Below, in pieces: positions 44,741 through 61,572 of a stretch of 64,000 nucleotides of DNA. The stretch covers positions 1-64,000 of the forward strand of contig WGLW01000023.1 in the NCBI GenBank assembly GCA_016125405.1. Direction: 5' to 3'. The stretch is from Alphaproteobacteria bacterium. Lineage in GTDB: Bacteria > Pseudomonadota > Alphaproteobacteria > Caulobacterales > Hyphomonadaceae. Below the pieces are notes generated by a model. That model ran no database searches. It was not told the DNA's origin and worked only from the letters and a program-made list of their open reading frames with translations. Position numbers and translations under genes: made by a program. Within the stretch, counting starts at the first letter, position 1; each line of letters opens with the position of its first letter.

Positions 44741-47224
44741 TCAGAACGAGAAGTTCAGCTTGCCGTAGATGAAGCGGCCCGAGTTGCCGTAGGGCGAGAA
44801 GCCCGAGAACGGCACGTTGCCTGTGCTGTTGAGCTGGTAGGGGAACGGATTGGTGTATTCGTCGAACACGTTGTCCGCGCCGATCGTCGCCGAGACCCAG
44901 TTGGTGAAGGTCCACTTCGCCGAGAGGTCGAGCAGCGTGTTGGGCTTCAGCACCGTGTCGGACGCCGCCGTGGTGCCGGGCGAGAGAACCTCGCCATAGC
45001 GCACCACCCGCGCCGTGCCGGTGAACGGACCCACTGTCCAGTCGCCCGACAGCGAGTACTTGTCCTTCGGCGTGCCCTTCTCGAACGTCAGCACGTTGAC
45101 CCGGCCAAACAGGGTCGGCGCCGGGCTCAGCGCCGAAATCACGGGGATTTCCGGAACCTTGTCCACCTTGGTGTCGTTGAAGTTGGCGCCGAAGGTCAGG
45201 TTGATCTTGCCCACGCCCATGTCCGGCACGCGGTAGTTGGCCACCACGTCCACGCCCTTGGTCGTCGTGTCGACGCCGTTGATGAAGAAGCGGCCGCCGC
45301 CCGAGCCGATGAAGCCCTGGTTCTGCAGGTAGGTGCGGACTTCCGCCGACGTCAGGTTTTCCGAAAGGACGATGCGGTCCTTCAGCTTGATCTGGTAGGC
45401 GTCGATCGTGACGCTGATGGCGTTGAAGCGGATCACCGCGCCGCCGGAATAGTTGGTCGATTTCTCGGCCTTCAGCGGCTTGGCGCCCAGCGAGACCGCG
45501 ATCGGATCGGTCACCGGGAACGTCGTCACGTCGAACGGAACGCCGTTGATGAAGTTCGTCGACGTCGTCGAGAAGTACTGCTGTTGCAGCGACGGCGCCC
45601 GGAAGCCGTTCTGGACGGACGCCCGCAACGCAAAGTTCGGCGTGAAGTCGTAACGCGCCGCAAGTTTGCCCGTCGCCGTCTCGCCGAAGTCCGAATACGA
45701 TTCGCCGCGCACGGCCCCGGACAGCAGGAACGCGTCGGTGATGTTCGCTTCGAGATCGACATACGCCGCAACCGACGTTCGCGTCTTGTCGACCTCATCA
45801 GCTGGACGGAAGCCCGGAAACACCTGTGCGCCCGATGCAAGCGGACCGCCGCCGGAGTCCGTCATTCCGCCGTTGCGGTAGCTGTCCGGTTCGCCCGCGC
45901 GAATTTGATAGTTCTCCGAACGCGCTTCCAGTCCCGCCGCAACGTTGAGCGGCGATGCGAGACCGACGTTGTATGTACGGTCCGCAGACAGGTTCGCGAC
46001 GACCTGGCCGTACTGGAATCCGCCGGAGTCGAATTCCGTTTTCGATGTCGGCCCGATCGAGGCGTTCAGCGTGTTCTTGATGGTGTAGTCCATCTTGTTG
46101 TTGCCGTAGACGAGCGACCCGTCCATGTTCCATTCGCCAAGTTTGAACTTGGATCCGAACGCCGCTGAATAGTCGACGACAACTGGATTGATCTTCGGCA
46201 GGAAGCCGTCGGGATAGATCGAAATGACGTTGCGCGAGTCCAGTGCACGTCGATAGAAGCCCGCCGACAACGCGTCGCGGTGTTGGTAACTTGCCCAACC
46301 ATAGAGATTGACGCCCGTTTGCGTGTCGTAGCCGCCGTTCGCGAAGAACGTGTATTGATCCATTTCCGGTTCGCCGGTCCACGCGTCCCAACGGTTGAAC
46401 GTCGCTTCGCGCGGATCGAAACCGCCGCCCGTCAGCAACGGATAGTTCTGCCGCGTGTCGTAACCGGACCGTTCGGTGTGGTTCTGCGACTTGTATTCGC
46501 CGGACAACGTCAGGAATCCGGAATCGCCGAGCGAAACGCCCTTCCAACCGGACACTGTTGCGACTTCGCCGTCTTCGACGTGGCGTTTCTTGGTTGCATC
46601 GACGGTGATTGGCAAACCGGCGACGGGCGGCGTTACAGGAACTTCGTACGTTGAATCACGCCAACCGTACGAAACGGTGGCGCCGCCGCCGCTGCTGGCT
46701 TCTTTCAAACGAACGTTGATAACGCCGGCGATGGCGTCCGAACCGTACTGCGCAGACGCACCGTCGCGCAGAACTTCGATCGACTGCACCGCTTCGGTGG
46801 GAATGGTGTTCAGGTCGACGGCCGAGGCGCCGCGGCCGATCGAACCGTTGATGTTGACGAGCGACGCCGAGTGACGGCGTTTCGAGTTCACCAACACCAG
46901 TGTCTGGTCGGGCGACAGTCCGCGCAACGTGGCCGGACGAACAGTGTCCGTTCCGTCCACCAGTGCAGGACGGGGGAAACTGAACGACGGAACAGCTTCG
47001 GCGAGCGCCTGGTTCACCTCGGCGATGCCGATGTTCTTCAGTTCACCGCCGCCGATGACGTCGACGGGCGCCGCGGTGTCCAGCGCCGACCGGTCGGCGA
47101 CACGCGTACCCGTGACGACGATGACGTCCGACGAATCACTTTCCTGCGCTTGTGCTTCCAGTGCGAACAACAGCGGCACCGCCGCAACGCCGGCGAGAAT
47201 CGCCATTTTCGACCAGACTCTCAT
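44741..47224 (-). CDS. TonB-dependent outer-membrane receptor
   Basis: 827 residues: signal peptide (MRVWSKMAILAGVAAVPLLF, cleavage near EAQAQES), plug domain (VDVIGGGELKNIGIAEVNQA, TLRGLSPDQTLVLVNSKRRH, GASAQYGSDAIAGVINVRLK) and a barrel ending FIYGKLNFSF. The ligand is unknown. It is divergent from the enoyl-CoA hydratase, with an inverted repeat between. The half toward the start (about 45.9-47.2 kb) uses GAA, CAA, GGT and TTG codons far more than the other half, which favours GAG, GGC and CTG, a hint of recombination. Confidence 0.92.
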   Translation of the reverse strand: MRVWSKMAILAGVAAVPLLFALEAQAQESDSSDVIVVTGTRVADRSALDTAAPVDVIGGGELKNIGIAEVNQALAEAVPSFSFPRPALVDGTDTVRPATLRGLSPDQTLVLVNSKRRHSASLVNINGSIGRGASAVDLNTIPTEAVQSIEVLRDGASAQYGSDAIAGVINVRLKEASSGGGATVSYGWRDSTYEVPVTPPVAGLPITVDATKKRHVEDGEVATVSGWKGVSLGDSGFLTLSGEYKSQNHTERSGYDTRQNYPLLTGGGFDPREATFNRWDAWTGEPEMDQYTFFANGGYDTQTGVNLYGWASYQHRDALSAGFYRRALDSRNVISIYPDGFLPKINPVVVDYSAAFGSKFKLGEWNMDGSLVYGNNKMDYTIKNTLNASIGPTSKTEFDSGGFQYGQVVANLSADRTYNVGLASPLNVAAGLEARSENYQIRAGEPDSYRNGGMTDSGGGPLASGAQVFPGFRPADEVDKTRTSVAAYVDLEANITDAFLLSGAVRGESYSDFGETATGKLAARYDFTPNFALRASVQNGFRAPSLQQQYFSTTSTNFINGVPFDVTTFPVTDPIAVSLGAKPLKAEKSTNYSGGAVIRFNAISVTIDAYQIKLKDRIVLSENLTSAEVRTYLQNQGFIGSGGGRFFINGVDTTTKGVDVVANYRVPDMGVGKINLTFGANFNDTKVDKVPEIPVISALSPAPTLFGRVNVLTFEKGTPKDKYSLSGDWTVGPFTGTARVVRYGEVLSPGTTAASDTVLKPNTLLDLSAKWTFTNWVSATIGADNVFDEYTNPFPYQLNSTGNVPFSGFSPYGNSGRFIYGKLNFSF

Positions 47225-47333
47225 TCGCTCACTCCGTGCAGGATTATATTTCTGTACACCGAACGTGTACCCCGTTCGGCGGCGCCGCAACTGCGTGCGT
47301 TCGATTTCACGTCAACAGACGACGGTTACAGTG

Positions 47334-50818: not shown

Positions 50819-51826
50819 TCAGCAGCCGGGCCTGGGCAGGCTGAAGCGGGGGTCGCGGATGAAGGCGTCGTCGGTGAGTGACTGGAGGAAGGCGATCAGG
50901 TCGTCCGTTTCGGCGGTGTTGGGCGCGGTGGCGCCGAGGGCTGCATCGCGCCCCGGGGTGTTGCGATAGTGGGCGGCGATGGCGTCTTCCAGCGTCGCGG
51001 CGGAGCCGTCGTGGAGATAGGGCGCGGTGAGCGCGACATTGCGCAGGCTGGGCGTGCGGAAGCGGCCCGCGTCGGCCGTCCGGTGCGTCGTTTCGTAGAG
51101 CCCCGCGTCGGACAACGCCGCGCCGCTCTCGCCGATGTTGTGGAAGGCGCGGGACGGATCGGCGGACGCCTCGGTCGTATCCGTGAAGTCCGGGCCGGAA
51201 TGGCATGAGGCGCAGTTGAACGTCTTGCCGGCGAACAGCGCGGCGCCGCGCTGCGCGTTTGCCGGCAGCGCATCCGCCTCGCTCGCGCGCCAGCGGTCGT
51301 AGGGCGCACTGCGCGAGGTCAACGTCCGCTCGAACGCCGCGAGAGCTTCGGCGACATCGGGCACAGTGATTGCGCCATCGCCCGGAAAGGCGCGCGCGAA
51401 CATCGCGACGTAGCAGGGATCGCCGCCGAGGCGGCGCGCCAGTTCCGCCTCCTTGCCCTTCATGCCCATCTCGACCGGATGATCGCCCGCGAACGGAACA
51501 AGGACCTGCGCCTCCAGCGATCGCAGTCCCGGGTCCGCCCAGGTGAGCGAGGAAAAGCCCGCGACGTTGGCGAGGCCCGGCACGTTGCGGCGGCCCGGTT
51601 CGCCTGTGACGCCCGGATGCGTGCGGTTGGTTTCGGCGAAGGCGTGTTTCTGTTCGTGGCAGGTGGCGCACGACATCGTGCCGTCGATGGAGAGGTCGGC
51701 GTCGTAGAAGAGGCGCCGGCCGAGGTCTGCGCGGGCTGAGGCCTTGCCGGATGCGTCATCCGGCGGCGCGGCGGCGGCGAGCCCCGCCAGCACGCAGGCG
51801 GCGGCGACGGCTGGAAGCAGCTTCAC
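50819..51826 (-). CDS. Di-heme cytochrome c peroxidase (MauG/MbnH-like)
   Basis: 335 residues: signal peptide (VKLLPAVAAACVLAGLAAAA), first heme motif CATCH in GTMSCATCHEQKHAFAE, second CASCH in FNCASCHSGPDFTD, and SLRNVALTAPYLHDG near the end. The two-heme layout is that of bacterial cytochrome c peroxidases and their MauG/MbnH relatives that oxidise tryptophans. The start is GTG at 51826, overlapping the stop of the upstream small gene (GTGA). Its hemes depend on the Ccm system. Confidence 0.9.
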   Translation of the reverse strand: MKLLPAVAAACVLAGLAAAAPPDDASGKASARADLGRRLFYDADLSIDGTMSCATCHEQKHAFAETNRTHPGVTGEPGRRNVPGLANVAGFSSLTWADPGLRSLEAQVLVPFAGDHPVEMGMKGKEAELARRLGGDPCYVAMFARAFPGDGAITVPDVAEALAAFERTLTSRSAPYDRWRASEADALPANAQRGAALFAGKTFNCASCHSGPDFTDTTEASADPSRAFHNIGESGAALSDAGLYETTHRTADAGRFRTPSLRNVALTAPYLHDGSAATLEDAIAAHYRNTPGRDAALGATAPNTAETDDLIAFLQSLTDDAFIRDPRFSLPRPGC

Positions 51827-52395
51827 GGCGCCCTGGTGATCAGCACGCCGACTCGATCGCCCGCGTTGGCGGAAATCTGCAGCACATAGGCGCCGGGCTG
51901 GAGCGCAAACGACACCACCTTGCGGATCGAGGAGCAGGCCGGCCCGTGGCCATGATCGCTGGAGTCGATCGCCTCGCCGTTCTTCAGCACGTCGATCCAC
52001 GCGCCGGAACCGAGCGCGACGCGGTAGGTTCCCGCTTCGCTGATGGTGAAGCCCAGCAGTCCGCCGTGCGCAACCGAGCCGCCGGGCTTTTCCGGCTGGG
52101 CGGCATAGGCCACCTGTCGCGTGGGATGAAGCGCGGCGTTAACAGCGACGCCCGGCTGCACCGCGGCGGCGGAGAGGCCCTTCGCGTCGGCGGCGGAGGC
52201 GATGTCTGTCTTGTGCGTCCAGGCCGCAAGGTCGGCCGGAAGCGCTGTATCCGTCGTGGCGCAGGCCGGGGCCGCGCCTTCTCCGTCGGCCGGCGGCGTC
52301 TGCGCTAGGCCTGCGAGCGGCGCACAGGCAAAGGCGGCAGCGGCGAGCGCAAATCGCAATGTCATGGGGACGGGCATAGGCATGGGCATTGGCAT
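51823..52395 (-). CDS. Small secreted protein partnered with the di-heme peroxidase
   Basis: 190 residues from the outermost ATG, or 180 from the ATG at 52365, which gives a clean signal peptide (MTLRFALAAAAFACAPLAGL). The body has GKSVAHG-like and HGGLLGFTISEAGTYRVALG, GSGAWIDVLKNGE and HGHGPACSSIRKVV. Such proteins in sphingomonads are sometimes labelled homogentisate dioxygenase without reason (recall). Its His-rich HGHGPAC segment could bind a metal. Coupled to the peroxidase; a copy of the 24-bp palindrome lies just upstream. Confidence 0.7.
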   Translation of the reverse strand: MPMPMPMPVPMTLRFALAAAAFACAPLAGLAQTPPADGEGAAPACATTDTALPADLAAWTHKTDIASAADAKGLSAAAVQPGVAVNAALHPTRQVAYAAQPEKPGGSVAHGGLLGFTISEAGTYRVALGSGAWIDVLKNGEAIDSSDHGHGPACSSIRKVVSFALQPGAYVLQISANAGDRVGVLITRAP

Positions 52396-52402
52396 AAGCC
52401 TT

Positions 52403-52426
52403 CGCTATCTTTCACGACGTATAGCG
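52403..52426. promoter_or_regulatory. 24-bp palindrome, copy 1
   Basis: CGCTAT (52403-52408), 12 bases, ATAGCG (52421-52426). It lies 38 bases upstream of the preferred ATG (52365) of the small secreted-protein gene. Same architecture as two copies upstream of the TonB receptor at 52467-54611. Confidence 0.72.
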
Positions 52427-52466
52427 ATATACACCGGACGAATGGCGCCGTCATCCACCCTGCCGC

Positions 52467-54611
52467 TCAGTTGCGGAGCCTCAGCGACAGATAGACGTTC
52501 CGCCCCTCTTCCGGGAAACCATCGACAAGCTGGTAGTTGGCGTCGCCAATGTTGCGGACGCCCGCCAGCAGCGAGACATTCGGCGAGAGCGTCCAGTCGG
52601 CTGCGAGGTTGAGCAGCGTGTAGTCGCCCGTCTTGTAGAATTGCGGCGGGGTGATCGCGGAACTGGACGTGACCGTCCAGCGGTTCGACGCCGCCTCGAT
52701 GCTGGGCGTTATGGTCAGCGACTGCAGGACGCGCCAGTCGGCATAGAGGAAGAGCTTGTAATCCGGCACGCCCTGCGGACGGAAGGCCGGGTTGGTGGGG
52801 TCGGTGAAGTCGCGGTGGATCCACGTGGCGTTGCCGCCGATGCGCAGCGCGGGCGCGAGATCGGCCGTCGCTTCCAGTTCGGCGCCGTAATAGCTGGCGT
52901 CGCCCGCATTCTTCGTCTGGTTCACCGTGCCGAAGGGCGGGCCGAGCGCGACGGGGATCTGGATCAACGCATCCTGGAGGTCGCTGTAGAAGACCGCGCC
53001 TTCGAAGTGGAGCGCCGCGGCCGGATCGAGCGTTGCGCCGACCTCGTAGTTGGTGGCGCGCTCGGGGCCGACATCCGGGTTGGGCACGGCGGTCCCGAAG
53101 CGCGAGGAGAAGCGCTCGAAGATGGTGGGGAAGCGCGTGCGCGAGGAGACGCTGACGTGCATCCGCGCGCGCGGATCGATGCGCCAGACAAGCGCCGCCT
53201 GCCCGTTCAGCGCATGCATGTCCTTCAGCGGATAATCCACCGGGGTGAAGACGATGGTGGAGTTGGCGATCGTTGTGCCCGTCGCCGACACGCTGATGTC
53301 GTTGGCGGTTTTCAGGTCGGTCCAGTCGTAGGAGAGGCCGGTCACAAGATCGACGTTGGGGCCGAGCTTCTGCACGTCTTCGGCGGCGATGGAGTAAGTG
53401 TCTTCCTTGTCCTGCTGCCACGGCTCGGCATAGGGCGCGAAGGCGAATGGCGCGCCGGAGGGCGGCGTGCGCGTGTAGCCGAGCTGGCGTTCGCGATGCT
53501 CGTCGTTGCGGAAATGGACAGCGCTGGTGAGCGTGTTGGACGGGGCGATGGTCCACGCCAGCGTCGCTTCGGCGCCCCAGGCGGTGTCGTCGTAATACGA
53601 GTTGAACGCCTTGGGCAGCGATTGTGTGGTCTGGCTGGCGTCGTCATAGGCCGAGAGCAGGTTCTGGAAGCCGTTGCGGTAGATGCGCGTCTTCAGGTTG
53701 AGGTTCGGCGCAAGTTGCGTGCGCGAGAGAAAATAGACGCTGTCGATGTCCCAGTAGGGCCAGCTCCAGTACCGGCCGCTTGTGGTGTCGGACACGTGAT
53801 AGGGCGCGTTCTTGGCGCCGGACTGGCGGATGTAGCTGATGGCGTATTCATCGGTGTCGTTGGGCGTCCACCCGGCCTTGAGATTGACGCGCCAGTCGTT
53901 GCTGGAGGAATGCTCGCGCGAGCCGCCATCCTCGAGCGCGGGAACGACAGGCGTGAAATCGTTCGAGAGCGTGAAGTTTCCGCGCCGCGAAATGTCGCCG
54001 GATGCCTGGGCGTAGAACTTGTCCTGCTTCGTGCCGAGAAGCGCGGAATAGGTGTTGCCCGTCCAGTCGAGGTCGCGGTCGCCGGTGAGCGTGGCGTCGA
54101 ATTCGGCCTCGAAGGGTTTTGACGGCTTGCGGGTGACGAGGTTGATCGCGCCGCCCAGGCCGCCGGGGCCGTCGAGAACGGACGTGTAGCCCTTGCCGAC
54201 CTGCACCTCGGCGATGTCGGCGGTGAGGAAGCGGCCGAAATCGATGCGGTTGTCGGCGGGAAGGAAGACGCGCACGCCGTCGATCGAGAGCGTGGTCTGG
54301 AAGCGGTCGAAGCCGCGGACGTATATCAGCCGTTCGTTGCGCGAGCCGCCGGTGTTGGAGGCGACGGCGCCGGGGACGAGGTCGATCGCCTGGTCGACAG
54401 TCTGCGCATCGAGCTTGCGCATGTCCGCCGCGCCAATGTCCGAACCGCCAATGTGCTGGCCTTCGCTGTCGCTCGGCGCTGCGGAAATGCGGCCGAGGAC
54501 AAACACAGTGTCTGACGCATCCTGGTCGGGCGCCGTCTGCGCCAAAGCGGGGACCGGCGCCGCCAGCATACCCGCCACCAGCGCTGCGCGCCCTGCTCCG
54601 CCCAGCCTCAT
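52467..54611 (-). CDS. TonB-dependent outer-membrane receptor (operator-linked)
   Basis: 714 residues: signal peptide (AALVAGMLAAPVPALAQ), plug (DIGAADMRKLDAQTVDQAID, ERLIYVRGFDRFQTTLSIDG, GGLGGAINLVTRKPSKP) and a barrel ending GRNVYLSLRLRN. Shares its upstream palindrome with the secreted protein/di-heme unit 3' of it, so the three genes are probably expressed together. Metal or metal-chelate uptake (perhaps copper) is a guess from the di-heme partner. No His/Cys-rich loop stands out. Confidence 0.92.
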   Translation of the reverse strand: MRLGGAGRAALVAGMLAAPVPALAQTAPDQDASDTVFVLGRISAAPSDSEGQHIGGSDIGAADMRKLDAQTVDQAIDLVPGAVASNTGGSRNERLIYVRGFDRFQTTLSIDGVRVFLPADNRIDFGRFLTADIAEVQVGKGYTSVLDGPGGLGGAINLVTRKPSKPFEAEFDATLTGDRDLDWTGNTYSALLGTKQDKFYAQASGDISRRGNFTLSNDFTPVVPALEDGGSREHSSSNDWRVNLKAGWTPNDTDEYAISYIRQSGAKNAPYHVSDTTSGRYWSWPYWDIDSVYFLSRTQLAPNLNLKTRIYRNGFQNLLSAYDDASQTTQSLPKAFNSYYDDTAWGAEATLAWTIAPSNTLTSAVHFRNDEHRERQLGYTRTPPSGAPFAFAPYAEPWQQDKEDTYSIAAEDVQKLGPNVDLVTGLSYDWTDLKTANDISVSATGTTIANSTIVFTPVDYPLKDMHALNGQAALVWRIDPRARMHVSVSSRTRFPTIFERFSSRFGTAVPNPDVGPERATNYEVGATLDPAAALHFEGAVFYSDLQDALIQIPVALGPPFGTVNQTKNAGDASYYGAELEATADLAPALRIGGNATWIHRDFTDPTNPAFRPQGVPDYKLFLYADWRVLQSLTITPSIEAASNRWTVTSSSAITPPQFYKTGDYTLLNLAADWTLSPNVSLLAGVRNIGDANYQLVDGFPEEGRNVYLSLRLRN

Positions 54612-54626
54612 CCCGCTCTCCCGACT

Positions 54627-54684
54627 CGCTATCTTTGTTCGCGTATAGCGCTAGGCCATGCGCTATCGTTTGGCAACTATAGCG
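54627..54684. promoter_or_regulatory. 24-bp palindrome, copies 2 and 3
   Basis: Copy 2: CGCTAT (54627-54632), N12, ATAGCG (54645-54650). Copy 3: CGCTAT (54661-54666), N12, ATAGCG (54679-54684). They start 34 bases apart, upstream of the TonB receptor start at 54611. Copies 1 and 2 share the first ten bases exactly (CGCTATCTTT); copy 3 reads CGCTATCGTT. Confidence 0.72.
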
Positions 54685-55714: not shown

Positions 55715-58357
55715 CTAGAAGCCCCAGCTGGCGCCGAGATAGACCGAGCGTCCGACATATTCGTACTCGGTATTCCGCCTCTCGACGCCGCCCTGGAATT
55801 CCGTCGTGGGCTCGTCGTTGAGGTTGACCCCCTCAAGGAAGATCTTGAGGTGGTTGTTCAGCGAATAGCTGACCTTCGCATCCAGCCGGCCGAATTCGCC
55901 CTGGTCGAGGCGCTGCGTCGGATCAGAGTTGTTATCGGTCAGATAGCTGGCGTTGTAGGAATAGCTGATCGAGGCGTCGATCGGCCCTTTCTGGTAAAAG
56001 CCGGTCAGCGAATAGGTGCGCTTGGGCTGCCCGGTGAGCGGCTCGGTTCCGCCGCCGATGAGTTTCGACTCGCCATCGACGAAGGTTGCGGCCGCGGAGA
56101 CGCCAAGACCGTCGAACGGCGCCGGCAGGAAGCTGAACTGCGTCTGCGCCGTCAGTTCGAGACCCTTCAGCGTCGCCGACGTGGCGTTCACCGTGGTCGA
56201 CACGTTCAGCACGGTAAGCGCCGATGTGTCGATGCCGGTGAGACCCAGCTGGGCGAGCCGCGCCTGCATGTCGGTCTGGGTGGTGTAGGAGTCGGCCTGC
56301 CCCACAAGCTGGTCGCTGATGTCCTTGTAGAACACGGCGGCGGACAGAACTGTCAGCTGGTTGGGATAGAACTCCACCGAGGCGTCGTAATTCCATGACT
56401 TCCGCGCCACGAGATCGGGGTTGCCGATCGACACGGAGCCTGTCGCGCCGTTTTCCGAATAGGTCGAGCGCGGCGCGATCTGGTCATAGTCCGGCCGGCC
56501 GAGCGCACGGGTGACGGCGCCGCGGATCGCCCAGGCCTGCGTCGGGCGGTAGTTCACCAGCAGCGCAGGCAGGACTTCCGTGTAATCGCCGCCTGCGTTG
56601 ATGCGCGGCGGCGCGGAGGAGCCGTCGAGCAGATAGCCCGAGCTGTCTACCTTGGTGGATTCAACCCGTACGCCGCCGATCACCTGCACCGGACCGAACT
56701 GGCCGACACCCATGCCGTAGCCGGCGTAGATCGTTTCGGTCAGGTCATAGTCGGAGGCATATTCGGAGGTCAGCGTCGAGGCGGCGTTGATCTGGAAATG
56801 CGCGGCATTGGCTGGGTCACGGAGATAGGCGTCCATCGCCCGGTAGTTCATCCAGATGTTCGGCGCTGCTCCGCCCTTGTGGCCGGTCTCGTTGGCGAAC
56901 CCGCCCGACGTGAAGGAGGGATCGGTCGCCAGCGTGATCGGCGTTCCGAGCGGATCGTATTCCACTTCGGAAATGTTCTTGGAGCGGTCTGTCTTCGATC
57001 CCTTCAGGCCGGCCTTGAAGTAGATCATGTCGTTCATGTCCCAGCGCAGGTTGACCTGGCCAATGATCGCATCCTCGTCCATGGTTTCCTTATGGAAGCG
57101 CGCGCGGCGCAGCGGAAACAGGGACGGATCCGTGCGATCCGGCGTGCCGGCGTCGGGCGTGATGGTGACGACGCCGTCGCCATCGACCACAAAGGTGCTT
57201 GGCCCGACCGCGCTCGTGCTTGAGCGCCATTCCCAGTTGTCGTTCGGCGTATCGACATCGTTGTGGTTCGCCTGAACCAGGTAGTCGACCTTGATGTTTC
57301 CGAAGGTGTTGTCGCCGCCGGCGGCGATCGATCCGATGGTCTTGTCGTTGTTCTGGTGCCGGATGTTGGCCAGCACGCGGTCGGTTCCCTGCGTTCCTGT
57401 GGTCGGCGAGGTCAGCGTCACCTTGCCGGGGGTGGTGACGGTCAGGTTCTGCTCATACCGGTTGCGGTGCTGGAACTCGTCCCACGAGCCGTAGAAACCG
57501 CGCACGAAATAGTTCGCGCCCTCGCTCGGCTTCCACTGAAGCGCGCCGTTCACGTTCAGGCGCTTGCGACCGATCGTGTAGTAGTTGTTTTTGACGTCGA
57601 CCGGCAGGAATGTGCCGTCCGGCGCGCCGTCGACCTGGGACCAGGTGTCCTGGTAGACGCCGCGCGCCACGTATTCGCGGGCCGAATAGGAGGCGCCCAG
57701 CAGCCAGCCAAAGGTGTCGCCCACCTTGCCCGAGATGGTGCCGTCAAGCGCGTATGGGTCGAACCCTCCATAGGCGTTCGAATCCGGGCGGATGGCCTCA
57801 TAGCCGTAGCGGCCGCTGGCGTAGCCGTAGAAGCTGTCGGGCCGGTCAAACGGCATCTTGGTTTCAATGTTCACCGTTCCGCCGATGCCCTGCGCGTCCA
57901 TGTCCGGGGTCGGCGTCTTGATCACCTGCACCGCGCCGAGCACGCCGCCGGAAATGATGTCCAGCGGCGCCTGGCGGCCGCCGTCCTGCGTTTCGGGCGA
58001 GCCCATCTGGACGCCGTTGATGGTGACGTTGTTGAGGTCGGACGAGACGCCGCGGATCTGGACGAAGCGGCCCTCGCCTTTCTCGACCAGCATCGACACG
58101 CCGGGAAGCCGGTCGAGGCTTTCGCCGACGTTCTTGTCCGGAAGCTGTCCGAGTTCGTCGCTGCCCAGCGCCTCGATGACGCGGGTGTCGTCCTTCTTCT
58201 GCTCGATCGCTTCCCTGCGGATCAGCGCCGAGCCGGTGACAACCACGACGTCGCCGGCCGGGTCCGGCGCGGCGGCCGGATCAGCGGCCTGGGCGAACGC
58301 CGGCGCGGATGCAAGAATGGCCCCGGCGGAGCCAAACAGAAAATCCCTGAAACGCAT
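55715..58357 (-). CDS. TonB-dependent receptor, Xanthomonas/Caulobacter type (TIGR01782-like)
   Basis: 880 residues: signal peptide (FGSAGAILASAPAFAQA), plug with the family hallmark IRGVSSDLNNVTINGVQMGS and GVLGAVQVIKTPTPDMDAQG, and a barrel ending YVGRSVYLGASWGF. Receptors of this class often take up carbohydrates or oligomers; the ligand here is unknown. The lipoprotein downstream may be its partner. A terminator lies between them, so read-through or separate promoters are both possible. Confidence 0.93.
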   Translation of the reverse strand: MRFRDFLFGSAGAILASAPAFAQAADPAAAPDPAGDVVVVTGSALIRREAIEQKKDDTRVIEALGSDELGQLPDKNVGESLDRLPGVSMLVEKGEGRFVQIRGVSSDLNNVTINGVQMGSPETQDGGRQAPLDIISGGVLGAVQVIKTPTPDMDAQGIGGTVNIETKMPFDRPDSFYGYASGRYGYEAIRPDSNAYGGFDPYALDGTISGKVGDTFGWLLGASYSAREYVARGVYQDTWSQVDGAPDGTFLPVDVKNNYYTIGRKRLNVNGALQWKPSEGANYFVRGFYGSWDEFQHRNRYEQNLTVTTPGKVTLTSPTTGTQGTDRVLANIRHQNNDKTIGSIAAGGDNTFGNIKVDYLVQANHNDVDTPNDNWEWRSSTSAVGPSTFVVDGDGVVTITPDAGTPDRTDPSLFPLRRARFHKETMDEDAIIGQVNLRWDMNDMIYFKAGLKGSKTDRSKNISEVEYDPLGTPITLATDPSFTSGGFANETGHKGGAAPNIWMNYRAMDAYLRDPANAAHFQINAASTLTSEYASDYDLTETIYAGYGMGVGQFGPVQVIGGVRVESTKVDSSGYLLDGSSAPPRINAGGDYTEVLPALLVNYRPTQAWAIRGAVTRALGRPDYDQIAPRSTYSENGATGSVSIGNPDLVARKSWNYDASVEFYPNQLTVLSAAVFYKDISDQLVGQADSYTTQTDMQARLAQLGLTGIDTSALTVLNVSTTVNATSATLKGLELTAQTQFSFLPAPFDGLGVSAAATFVDGESKLIGGGTEPLTGQPKRTYSLTGFYQKGPIDASISYSYNASYLTDNNSDPTQRLDQGEFGRLDAKVSYSLNNHLKIFLEGVNLNDEPTTEFQGGVERRNTEYEYVGRSVYLGASWGF

Positions 58358-59244: not shown

Positions 59245-61329
59245 TTATTTCGACAATCGCAGGAGCGAAATCGACTTGGCGATGGACTTGAACGCCGCCT
59301 TCAGGTCGTCGCCGGTGACCGCCAGATAGGCGTGGCTGTCGTCCGTCGCGCAGGCCTTGAGGAAGGCGCCGCCGCCATTGGAGAGATCACCGCCGAAGCC
59401 CACCGTGTAGATGGTGATGCCGGCGTTCTTGATGCTTGTGCAGAGGCTGGCCGCCTGGTCAAACGGGCTGCCGTTGGTGGCGTTGCAGTTGATCCGGTAG
59501 GAACTGGAATCGACGCCGTAGTTCTTGGCGATGACGCCGTCGCAATAAGCGGTGTTGAAGTCGCCGTCGGTCATCAGCACCAGAACCTTGGCCAGGTGCT
59601 GCTCGCCATAGGGATGCGGGCGGTTGGTGTCGTCCGGCCAGAGATAGCCCCAGTTGGGCGAGATCATGTACCAGCCCCAGGCAAGGCCGATGTGGCCCGC
59701 TGTCGAGTCGTTGGTGTCGAGGTCCGTGATCGCCGTTTCCAGCGTATCCTTGTTCGCCGTCAGCGGCTTGAGAGCCGCATACGACCGGCAGCCGCCATAC
59801 GAGCCGCCGCCGGGATAGACCGGCGACACGAGCGCCGTGTCCGGTCCAACATCGTCATAGGCGTGGGCGCCCGTGCGCTCGGAGACGCAGTCGCTGATCT
59901 GCTTGACCCGCGTGCTGCCCGAGGCGTTGGTGAAGCGATAGTATTCGCAGCCTTCCTTGAGGCACCACGCCTTGCCGCTGTTCGAATAGTTCGAATAGCG
60001 GGGGCCCTGCGAGCCATCGAGAATGAAGGTGCTGCCGGTGACGTCGGAAATCTGCCAGGAGTTGTTGCCGCTGGTGTTGATGTCCGTCATGCCGCTGACG
60101 CCGGTGATATAGACGTAGTCGTTGTTCGACAGGCCGTGCGAGGCCGAGGTCACCCGGACTTCGCAGGACGCGGTGAAACACTCGGTCGCTGTGCCGCTGT
60201 AGGAATAATCCGAGTAATTCGGACCGTTGCTTCCAGACAGAATGAACGTGTCCGACGCAACGTTCGTCACCGTCCATGACTGGTTGTAGTTGTTGTTGAT
60301 GTCGGTCATGCCGTGCACGCTGTCGATGTGCACGAAATCGCCGTTCGAGAAGCCATGCCCGCTCGACGTGACCTGCACCTCGCAGTCCTTGTCGAAACAC
60401 TTCTGGATGGTCCCGTTATAGGAATAGCTGCTGTAGTAGCTGCTGTTGATGTAGTTGCCGCTCGAGGGGCTCTTCAGCTTGAACGTGTTCGAGGTGACGT
60501 CCGAAACAAGGTATTCCTTGTTGTTGAGCTGCGTCATGCCGTGGACGCCGGCGATGTAGATATAGTCGCCGTTCGACAGGCCGTGGCTGTTCGACGTCAC
60601 GACGGCGGCGCTGGCGCGCGTCACGTTCGAGATGCTTTTCTGCGAGCCGTTTTTCCACGTGGCGCCGGAAATGTTTCGCGAGGCGCTCTTCTTCCAGGTG
60701 GCGTCGGAGATATTCGTGCCGTCGACGGCAGCGCCGCGAACGCTGTCAGCGTAGTCGCCGAGATTGACGTTGTCGCCATACGAGATCAGCGACAGCTTGG
60801 AGTACCACGGCGTCTGCTTGTCGCTGACGACGATGTCGACGAGATCCTTGGCGGCCGCCTTGAGGTCGGTCATGCGCTGGCCGGCCATCGAACCGGTGGT
60901 GTCGAGCACCAGGGCGACCTCGATGTTGGACCCGCCGCGCCGCACTTCGCTTTCAGCCGAGACGTCGATGTGGCCGATGCCCATGATCGGCATGAAGAAG
61001 GTGTCGACCTGCACCGTGCCCTTCAGGGTCACGACATCCGCGCTCGGGTCGAGATCCAGCTGCACCGATCCGGGCGGGGCCTGGTGGAAGTTGGTGTCGA
61101 CAAATTTGCGGGCGACCGCGTTGAGCTGGTCTGTGTCGGTGGTCGACGTCGAACCAACCGCCAGGGCCGCCGCATCAAGGGCCGAGCCGAGTTCGAAACG
61201 GGCGAGGAAGGCCCTGCCCCCGTCGATCGCAAGGCCGGTGCAGGCCATGAGCGGCACGACCATCAGCGCGAACTGCATCGCGAAGGCGCCCGTCCGGTCT
61301 TTCAGAAAACGCCGCAGCAGACGCTTCAT
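59245..61329 (-). CDS. TadG-like pilus-associated protein with vWA and three FCCH-like repeats
   Basis: 694 residues: a TadE/G-type N-terminus (MKRLLRRFLKDRTGAFAMQF and a membrane helix to about 35), a von Willebrand A domain with MIDAS DTTGSMAG, interrupted after about residue 215 by three repeats of about 75 residues (cores HGLSNGDYIYIAGVHGMT, HGFSNGDFVHIDSVHGMT, HGLSNNDYVYITGVSGMT), each ending Cys-x4-Cys, then the rest of vWA (VLVLMTDGDFNTAYCDG, YTVGFGGDLSNGG). The repeats resemble the E1 FCCH-type domain also seen in phage fibres. TadG proteins sit with Flp pili; no other tad genes are in the window. Confidence 0.88.
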   Translation of the reverse strand: MKRLLRRFLKDRTGAFAMQFALMVVPLMACTGLAIDGGRAFLARFELGSALDAAALAVGSTSTTDTDQLNAVARKFVDTNFHQAPPGSVQLDLDPSADVVTLKGTVQVDTFFMPIMGIGHIDVSAESEVRRGGSNIEVALVLDTTGSMAGQRMTDLKAAAKDLVDIVVSDKQTPWYSKLSLISYGDNVNLGDYADSVRGAAVDGTNISDATWKKSASRNISGATWKNGSQKSISNVTRASAAVVTSNSHGLSNGDYIYIAGVHGMTQLNNKEYLVSDVTSNTFKLKSPSSGNYINSSYYSSYSYNGTIQKCFDKDCEVQVTSSGHGFSNGDFVHIDSVHGMTDINNNYNQSWTVTNVASDTFILSGSNGPNYSDYSYSGTATECFTASCEVRVTSASHGLSNNDYVYITGVSGMTDINTSGNNSWQISDVTGSTFILDGSQGPRYSNYSNSGKAWCLKEGCEYYRFTNASGSTRVKQISDCVSERTGAHAYDDVGPDTALVSPVYPGGGSYGGCRSYAALKPLTANKDTLETAITDLDTNDSTAGHIGLAWGWYMISPNWGYLWPDDTNRPHPYGEQHLAKVLVLMTDGDFNTAYCDGVIAKNYGVDSSSYRINCNATNGSPFDQAASLCTSIKNAGITIYTVGFGGDLSNGGGAFLKACATDDSHAYLAVTGDDLKAAFKSIAKSISLLRLSK

Positions 61330-61572
61330 TGCTCGTGTCCCCGTCTGCACGACCGGGGCCTCAGGCGAGCCTGAAACGATCCGATCAACCCGGCGACCTT
61401 GGTTCGGCCGCACCTGCTCCCGCGTTTGATGGGAGCGATTGAACGCGATCAGGATTAATTATCCGCTGATCCGGACGGGTGAATTCGTGGTCTGCCGGCA
61501 ACCACGGGCGGTCCAGCCGTTCCATTTCCGTTCATATTGCTGTTGCTATGACCTTCGACGGGAGGACTGCTC

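Follow-up and report, generated by a model that had tools for sequence, protein, structure and literature searches.

In a stretch of 64,000 nucleotides from an alphaproteobacterium of the Hyphomonadaceae (order Caulobacterales; assembly GCA_016125405.1, contig WGLW01000023.1, positions 1 to 64,000; called the window below), three copies of a 24-bp palindrome were found beside the genes of a TonB-dependent receptor, a small secreted protein which we call Sec190, and a di-heme c-type enzyme. The palindromes are most likely boxes for the regulator ModE. With good confidence the sequence data point to two ModE-repressed units which together would take up molybdate, tungstate or a chelate through a TonB-dependent importer, with Sec190 and the di-heme enzyme as its companions. 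The metal is probably molybdenum (or tungsten).

ModE-type palindromes in the window and in the host genome

The initial annotation had described three exact copies of CGCTAT-N12-ATAGCG, two in front of the receptor and one in front of the unit of Sec190 and di-heme enzyme, and both the coordinates (52403-52426, 54627-54650 and 54661-54684) and the placement were borne out. No further copy occurs in the window, 100 dinucleotide shuffles of the window gave no match, and the three palindromes are not due to chance. Read along the minus strand, two boxes come first, then the receptor, the third box, Sec190 and the di-heme enzyme. The distal box 1 (54661-54684) and the proximal box 2 (54627-54650) lie 49 and 15 bp upstream of the receptor ATG at 54611, and box 3 (52403-52426) occupies the gap between the receptor stop at 52467 and the Sec190 start at 52395 or 52365. 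E. coli-type sigma-70 promoters were not found between 50600 and 54800, the model being uninformative for this bacterial group.

In two papers the E. coli ModE consensus is given as ATCGNTATATA-N6-TATATANCGAT (PMC545781) and, in a variant form, as ATCGCTATATA-N6-TATATAACGAT (PMC2700814). The frame CGNTAT-N12-ATANCG of the window palindromes is contained in both forms, and it is because of this match that the palindromes are read as ModE boxes. Compared with the palindrome CGNTATATA-N6-TATATANCG, the outer CGNTAT and ATANCG are exact in all three boxes, with 11 of the 16 informative letters matched by box 1 and 12 each by boxes 2 and 3; the inner TATA steps of the consensus are kept only in part. 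Boxes of relatives match more of it, with 16 of 16 letters in one locus (L115; L, C and G numbers are our labels for loci, contigs and genomes) and 15 in four others (L047, L049, L062, L069).

Scanning of the whole host genome (3.86 Mb in 56 contigs) located the exact motif at six places, the three window boxes and three others. One of the latter (L002/L015, contig C47) is located 254 bp upstream of the probable start of the small subunit of a Fer2/MoCoBD molybdenum hydroxylase, another (L003, C51:7219-7242; 12 of 16 consensus letters) within an open reading frame (ORF) in a phage-like region, about 9 kb away from modC, and the third (L001) at the overlap of two gene ends. The relaxed form CGYTAT-N12-ATARCG has seven exact places, which comprise the three boxes of the window, the C47 hydroxylase, two sites in or across genes and modA on contig C35, where CGTTATAGCTTGCTGCATATAACG stands 9 bp before the start. 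Allowing one mismatch added 12 further places, including one 38 bp upstream of modB and one 139 bp upstream of a second molybdenum hydroxylase subunit (Fer2_2); nine of the other ten, all save C42:52504, were inspected, with eight of them falling within other genes and one at a gene's edge. For modA, modB and the hydroxylase subunit the starts were fixed by homology, and modA and modC of the host score over their curated cut-offs. The placement before mod and hydroxylase genes is regulon-like.

The host genome contains one ModE match (E up to 0.001), a 136-amino-acid ORF on contig C43 (L013:5087-5497), which is found by TIGR00637 with an E-value of 1e-22, by the molybdenum-dependent regulator model PRK10676 as second NCBIfam match below cut-off, and in Pfam by HTH_1 alone. 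The regulator had been proposed to be encoded outside the window and to be common to both units; the former is correct for this only ModE match of the genome, and the latter is supported.

Linkage of boxes, receptor and mod genes in relatives

Among 299 genomes of the order, Sec190 was detected in nine, host included, and ModE (E up to 1e-8) in 66 of 299, taken from their shared labels to be the same genomes, among them all nine with Sec190 (hypergeometric 8e-7, uncorrected for relatedness, five of the nine belonging to one genus). In each of the other eight Sec190 genomes a ModE-type palindrome precedes the receptor or Sec190, two of these palindromes being degenerate: L025-L029 have CGTTAT-N13-ATAACG, L032 a double CGCTAT-type array, and L030 and L031 weaker copies. 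A strict test for the N12 spacing was passed by one of the eight, since most relatives have N13. Three narrower patterns were scanned in 100 genomes of the order; CGCTATAT-N8-ATATAGCG and CGYTATNNAN6TNNATARCG occurred in none, both being too strict as they miss the host's own boxes, and CGTTATGTA-N7-TACATAACG occurred in one, at the receptor of G066, the locus from which it had been taken.

A scan of named genomes with one peptide pattern around HGHGPxC, which misses relatives lacking it, yielded 78 Sec190 loci, chiefly from Novosphingobium, Sphingomonas, Caulobacter, Phenylobacterium and Sphingobium, all titled Alphaproteobacteria save one titled only Proteobacteria. The eight relatives from the order recur among them, which makes the two counts dependent on each other, and one genus contributes several loci. 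Within the stretch examined, 45 loci contain the receptor (>100 bits), 39 the full di-heme enzyme, 22 modE (tblastn matches with E up to 1e-4, of which the one in L077 was verified by family search), seven modA (>70 bits) and eight modB (>80 bits). At least one of modE, modA and modB stands beside Sec190 in 23 of the 78 loci, and modE is near Sec190 in 18 of the 45 with receptor.

A consensus score of at least 12 of 16 was reached in 32 of 45 receptor loci versus 8 of 33 loci without receptor, and at least 11 in 40 of the 45. Measured against dinucleotide shuffles, the box was significant at p<0.01 in 25 and at p<0.05 in 32 of the 45 receptor loci, versus 7 and 8 of the 33 others. Other intergenic gaps of the receptor loci (120-700 bp, delimited by a rough gene picker which gives some false ORFs and over-long starts) reached 12 of 16 in a single case out of 125, immediately before modA (L057). 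A lenient null drawn from the remaining, largely coding windows of the locus (p floor 0.003) gave p<0.01 for 21 of 32 divergent, 11 of 12 receptor-first, both far-divergent and 8 of 32 Sec190-only loci. As 22 of 25 Sec190 genes without receptor, modE, modA and enzyme nearby lack a box, the box tracks the linked system and not Sec190 alone.

The linkage to mod genes is conserved. In three Phenylobacterium loci (L077, L079, L082) one box separates modAB from the divergent receptor, followed by a full-length modE and Sec190; the di-heme enzyme is complete in L077 and L082, and the Mop/TOBE domains of these ModE proteins were detected by family search in L077 and recognised by eye in L079 and L082. 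Elsewhere a row of modE, modA, modB and modC converges tail to tail on Sec190, whose other flank is taken by the receptor (L107, L108), or modA and Sec190 diverge from a gap that contains a box (L123). In L051 and L056 modE is located directly behind Sec190 on the opposite strand, with no receptor or enzyme match and no clear box. Judged by these sequences, the trio of receptor, Sec190 and di-heme enzyme has probably been conserved as an accessory uptake system among various relatives of Caulobacter and Sphingomonas.

The receptor, Sec190 and the di-heme enzyme

The receptor (52467-54611, minus strand, 714 amino acids) consists of plug and beta-barrel, with PF07715 and PF00593 above cut-off. 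Matches to 21 NCBIfam models were obtained, all of them below cut-off, and for the TonB-dependent copper receptor TIGR01778 the shortfall is large (53.2 bits, cut-off 472.45). Its receptor family and the mod neighbours suggest import of molybdate, tungstate or a chelate. Two further TonB-dependent receptors are encoded near it (44741-47290 and 55715-58357), and no exact palindrome is found upstream of either.

Sec190 (51823-52395, minus strand) has 190 amino acids, or 180 with the start at 52365. Its frame opens with alternating Met-Pro codons (MPMPMPMPVPM, 52365-52395), which offer many candidate starts just past box 3. No Pfam or NCBIfam match was obtained at E 0.001, relaxed limits gave insignificant matches only, and no significant sequence relative was found in the PDB. 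The MbnP model TIGR04052 matched nothing in the host genome (E up to 1) nor any of nine Sec190 members (E up to 5), and Sec190 was rejected as an MbnP. An AlphaFold model predicts a confident beta-sandwich (mean predicted local distance difference test score, pLDDT, 89.3) with a poor N-terminus, which matches a collagen-binding PPC-type domain (VIA Z 10.1, 104 residues, 2.6 A, 14% identity). By this model the fold would be the common PPC-type beta-sandwich, and such a shared fold shows no function. CorA (4bz4_A) gave a weak Foldseek match to the model (E 0.034), and the absence of CorA/MopE-type proteins from the 50 VIA matches listed is uninformative either way.

In an alignment of 53 members (the window protein and 52 loci selected by us from the 78; L116 has no usable Sec190 frame), Trp123, Gly139, Gly141, Pro142, Cys144, Lys149, Val151 and Gly158 are invariant, and Cys35, Trp49, His138 and His140, among others, are nearly so, His140 being Arg in several Caulobacter members. 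Conservation of HGHGPxC is partly due to selection, as the pattern around it had served as the search probe. Six residues (K93, P94, G95, G96, A166, N167) are kept to 97-100% in 40 enzyme-adjacent members, window included, and to 10-67% in the nine receptor-only members and the 29 with neither neighbour. An interface with the enzyme could leave such a pattern, as could common descent. Trp49 and Trp123 are retained to 93-100% in all three groups with no separation by presence of the enzyme, a uniformity which lends no support to the tryptophans being targets of the enzyme. The family is also found in another setting, as stand-alone members in Sphingomonas (L089, L096-L101, L103, L105; neighbours examined in L089, L096 and L098) occur without receptor, enzyme, modE and box.

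The di-heme gene (50819-51826, minus strand, 335 amino acids) is assigned to the Sec190 unit because its GTG start at 51826 overlaps the Sec190 stop. The protein matches Pfam CCP_MauG and has two CXXCH motifs, at residues 53 and 205; exactly two are present in 39 of 40 di-heme proteins. The best NCBIfam family is MbnH (TIGR04039, 312.1 bits, cut-off 362.85), MauG itself being more distant (TIGR03791, 163.4 bits, cut-off 443.85), and by these scores it is described as MbnH-like only. Its best PDB sequence match is the di-heme enzyme 6e1c_A (E 5.6e-55), which we take to be MbnH of Methylosinus. Fragments of the di-heme gene are located behind Sec190 in three loci (L075:7441-7554, L079:7512-7607, L088:7451-7618) and suggest repeated loss.

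Outside this system a further secreted protein (59245-61413, minus strand) was judged by eye to have vWA-like stretches; it also contains three inserted repeats of the form HG[LF]SN-D---I--V-GMT--N at residues 277, 353 and 426.

Proposed mechanism, competing explanations and known systems

From the known role of ModE we infer that with sufficient molybdate ModE would sit on the boxes and repress both the receptor unit with its two boxes and the Sec190/di-heme unit with its one box, and that molybdenum shortage would release both along with modA and modBC. The molybdenum hydroxylase genes with boxes might be controlled, in either sense, by the same regulator. The receptor would then move molybdate, tungstate or a molybdenum chelate over the outer membrane for uptake by ModABC, Sec190 would act as a periplasmic or surface partner of the receptor system, and the MbnH/MauG-like enzyme would probably oxidise Sec190, perhaps at the invariant Trp123, by analogy to what is thought for the related copper pairs. 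The copper sites of CorA and MopE contain a kynurenine formed from tryptophan, a conversion suspected to be catalysed by the adjacent di-heme protein (PMC3912023, PMC3621798). The concept put forward in the initial annotation, metal-type uptake over the outer membrane in company with a periplasmic heme enzyme, is supported. An extended version, in which the heme enzyme converts a Sec190 tryptophan, probably to kynurenine, and so creates a protein-made ligand for an oxyanion metal in a new molybdenum or tungsten route served by the ModE-repressed receptor, is regarded as a tentative and rather doubtful proposal.

Several observations weigh against a ModE-controlled importer of this composition. 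The ModE-type protein of the host scores 81.7 bits with TIGR00637, below the cut-off of 98.5, and ends after the helix-turn-helix region with no tandem Mop/TOBE domains; as judged by length, Mop domains are likewise absent in 19 of the 22 ModE proteins found near Sec190. In 13 of the 45 receptor loci the best box is below 12 of 16 letters, in five below 11, and not all loci are significant against their shuffles. Many random copies outside promoters had been envisaged as an argument against a shared operator; on the sequence side two of the six exact genomic copies sit in or across genes (contigs C43 and C51). With up to two mismatches 112 places were counted versus 159 for a reversed control pattern, which is no enrichment and leaves only near-exact copies informative; the relaxed motif with up to one mismatch shows little excess (19 places versus 11). 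The longest mechanical ORFs of modA, modB and the hydroxylase subunit extend across their boxes. Finally, a full di-heme enzyme is missing from nine of the 45 receptor loci, four of these being shortened by a contig end (8.8-10.9 kb). As it is not found in full in these nine, the enzyme is not essential to the system and looks like an accessory part.

Copper had been named initially as one possible metal, and a copper acquisition system of the MbnP/MbnH, CorA/CorB or MopE/SACCP kind under a copper sensor would fit the MbnH/MauG-like character of the di-heme enzyme. According to PMC3621798 and PMC3912023 such enzymes adjoin secreted partners, often with a TonB-dependent receptor in methanobactin loci, and corA and mopE together with their di-heme genes are described as copper-repressed. 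The invariant Trp123 and the HGHGPxC motif of Sec190 recall the two histidines plus kynurenine of CorA, to which the weak Foldseek match also leads, and Sec190 may have a role in copper chemistry. Yet the operator frame and the genomic partners belong to ModE, with mod genes in the neighbourhood in 23 of 78 loci, the MbnP model draws a blank, and the receptor is far from the copper receptor family. Copper control of the units is not supported in view of the ModE-type operator frame and the mod-gene partners and is rejected here, and a copper acquisition system of the kind outlined is very unlikely.

Control by ModE might also be combined with a cargo other than molybdenum, such as a substrate or cofactor of a molybdoenzyme, or copper by way of copper/molybdate antagonism. 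The predicted ModE regulon can exceed molybdate transport according to PMC2700814, boxes of the host precede molybdenum hydroxylase genes, and the pair of Sec190 and enzyme resembles the copper pairs. We consider this unlikely, as the adjoining mod genes encode molybdate transport and its regulator, and in Phenylobacterium a single box serves both modAB and the receptor. A palindrome of another regulator whose site resembles a ModE box by chance would account for the inner TA steps being only partly kept in the window and for the equally high score of the copy inside the unrelated gene of the phage-like region. This is extremely improbable in view of the inner letters kept in some relatives, the frequent adjacency of modE and the presence of the same box at modA of the host. 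Import of molybdenum or tungsten under ModE control is the reading retained here.

The usual assumption is that molybdate simply diffuses through porins on its way to ModABC. If the proposal holds, active molybdenum uptake over the outer membrane exists in many Caulobacterales and Sphingomonadales, and MbnH-like heme enzymes, which have so far been linked to copper, are tied to a second metal. Very little is known about the passage of metals over the outer membrane of rhizobia, as stated in PMC4965479. Among the matches listed by full-text searches of open-access literature, none mentions a ModE-controlled or molybdate-specific TonB receptor in its title or the opening of its abstract.

Compared with the ModE regulon, the operator frame, the ModE-type protein and the boxed modA, modB and molybdenum hydroxylase genes are alike, whereas the present set also has a TonB-dependent receptor, a secreted family without a name and a di-heme enzyme, none of which is listed as belonging to the regulon in the passages of PMC545781 and PMC2700814 considered. 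The methanotroph copper loci MbnT/MbnP/MbnH, CorA/CorB and MopE/SACCP share with the present system a MauG-like di-heme enzyme beside a secreted partner with a conserved tryptophan, but here ModE-type boxes are present, Sec190 is missed by the MbnP model, and its predicted fold is PPC-like. In Pseudomonas aeruginosa, ModA secreted by a type VI secretion system delivers molybdate via the outer membrane protein IcmP (PMC11734730). A dedicated outer membrane step for molybdate is common to that system and to the one suggested here, the difference being that Pseudomonas employs a secreted ModA and a secretion system and the Hyphomonadaceae bacterium would employ a ModE-controlled TonB receptor.

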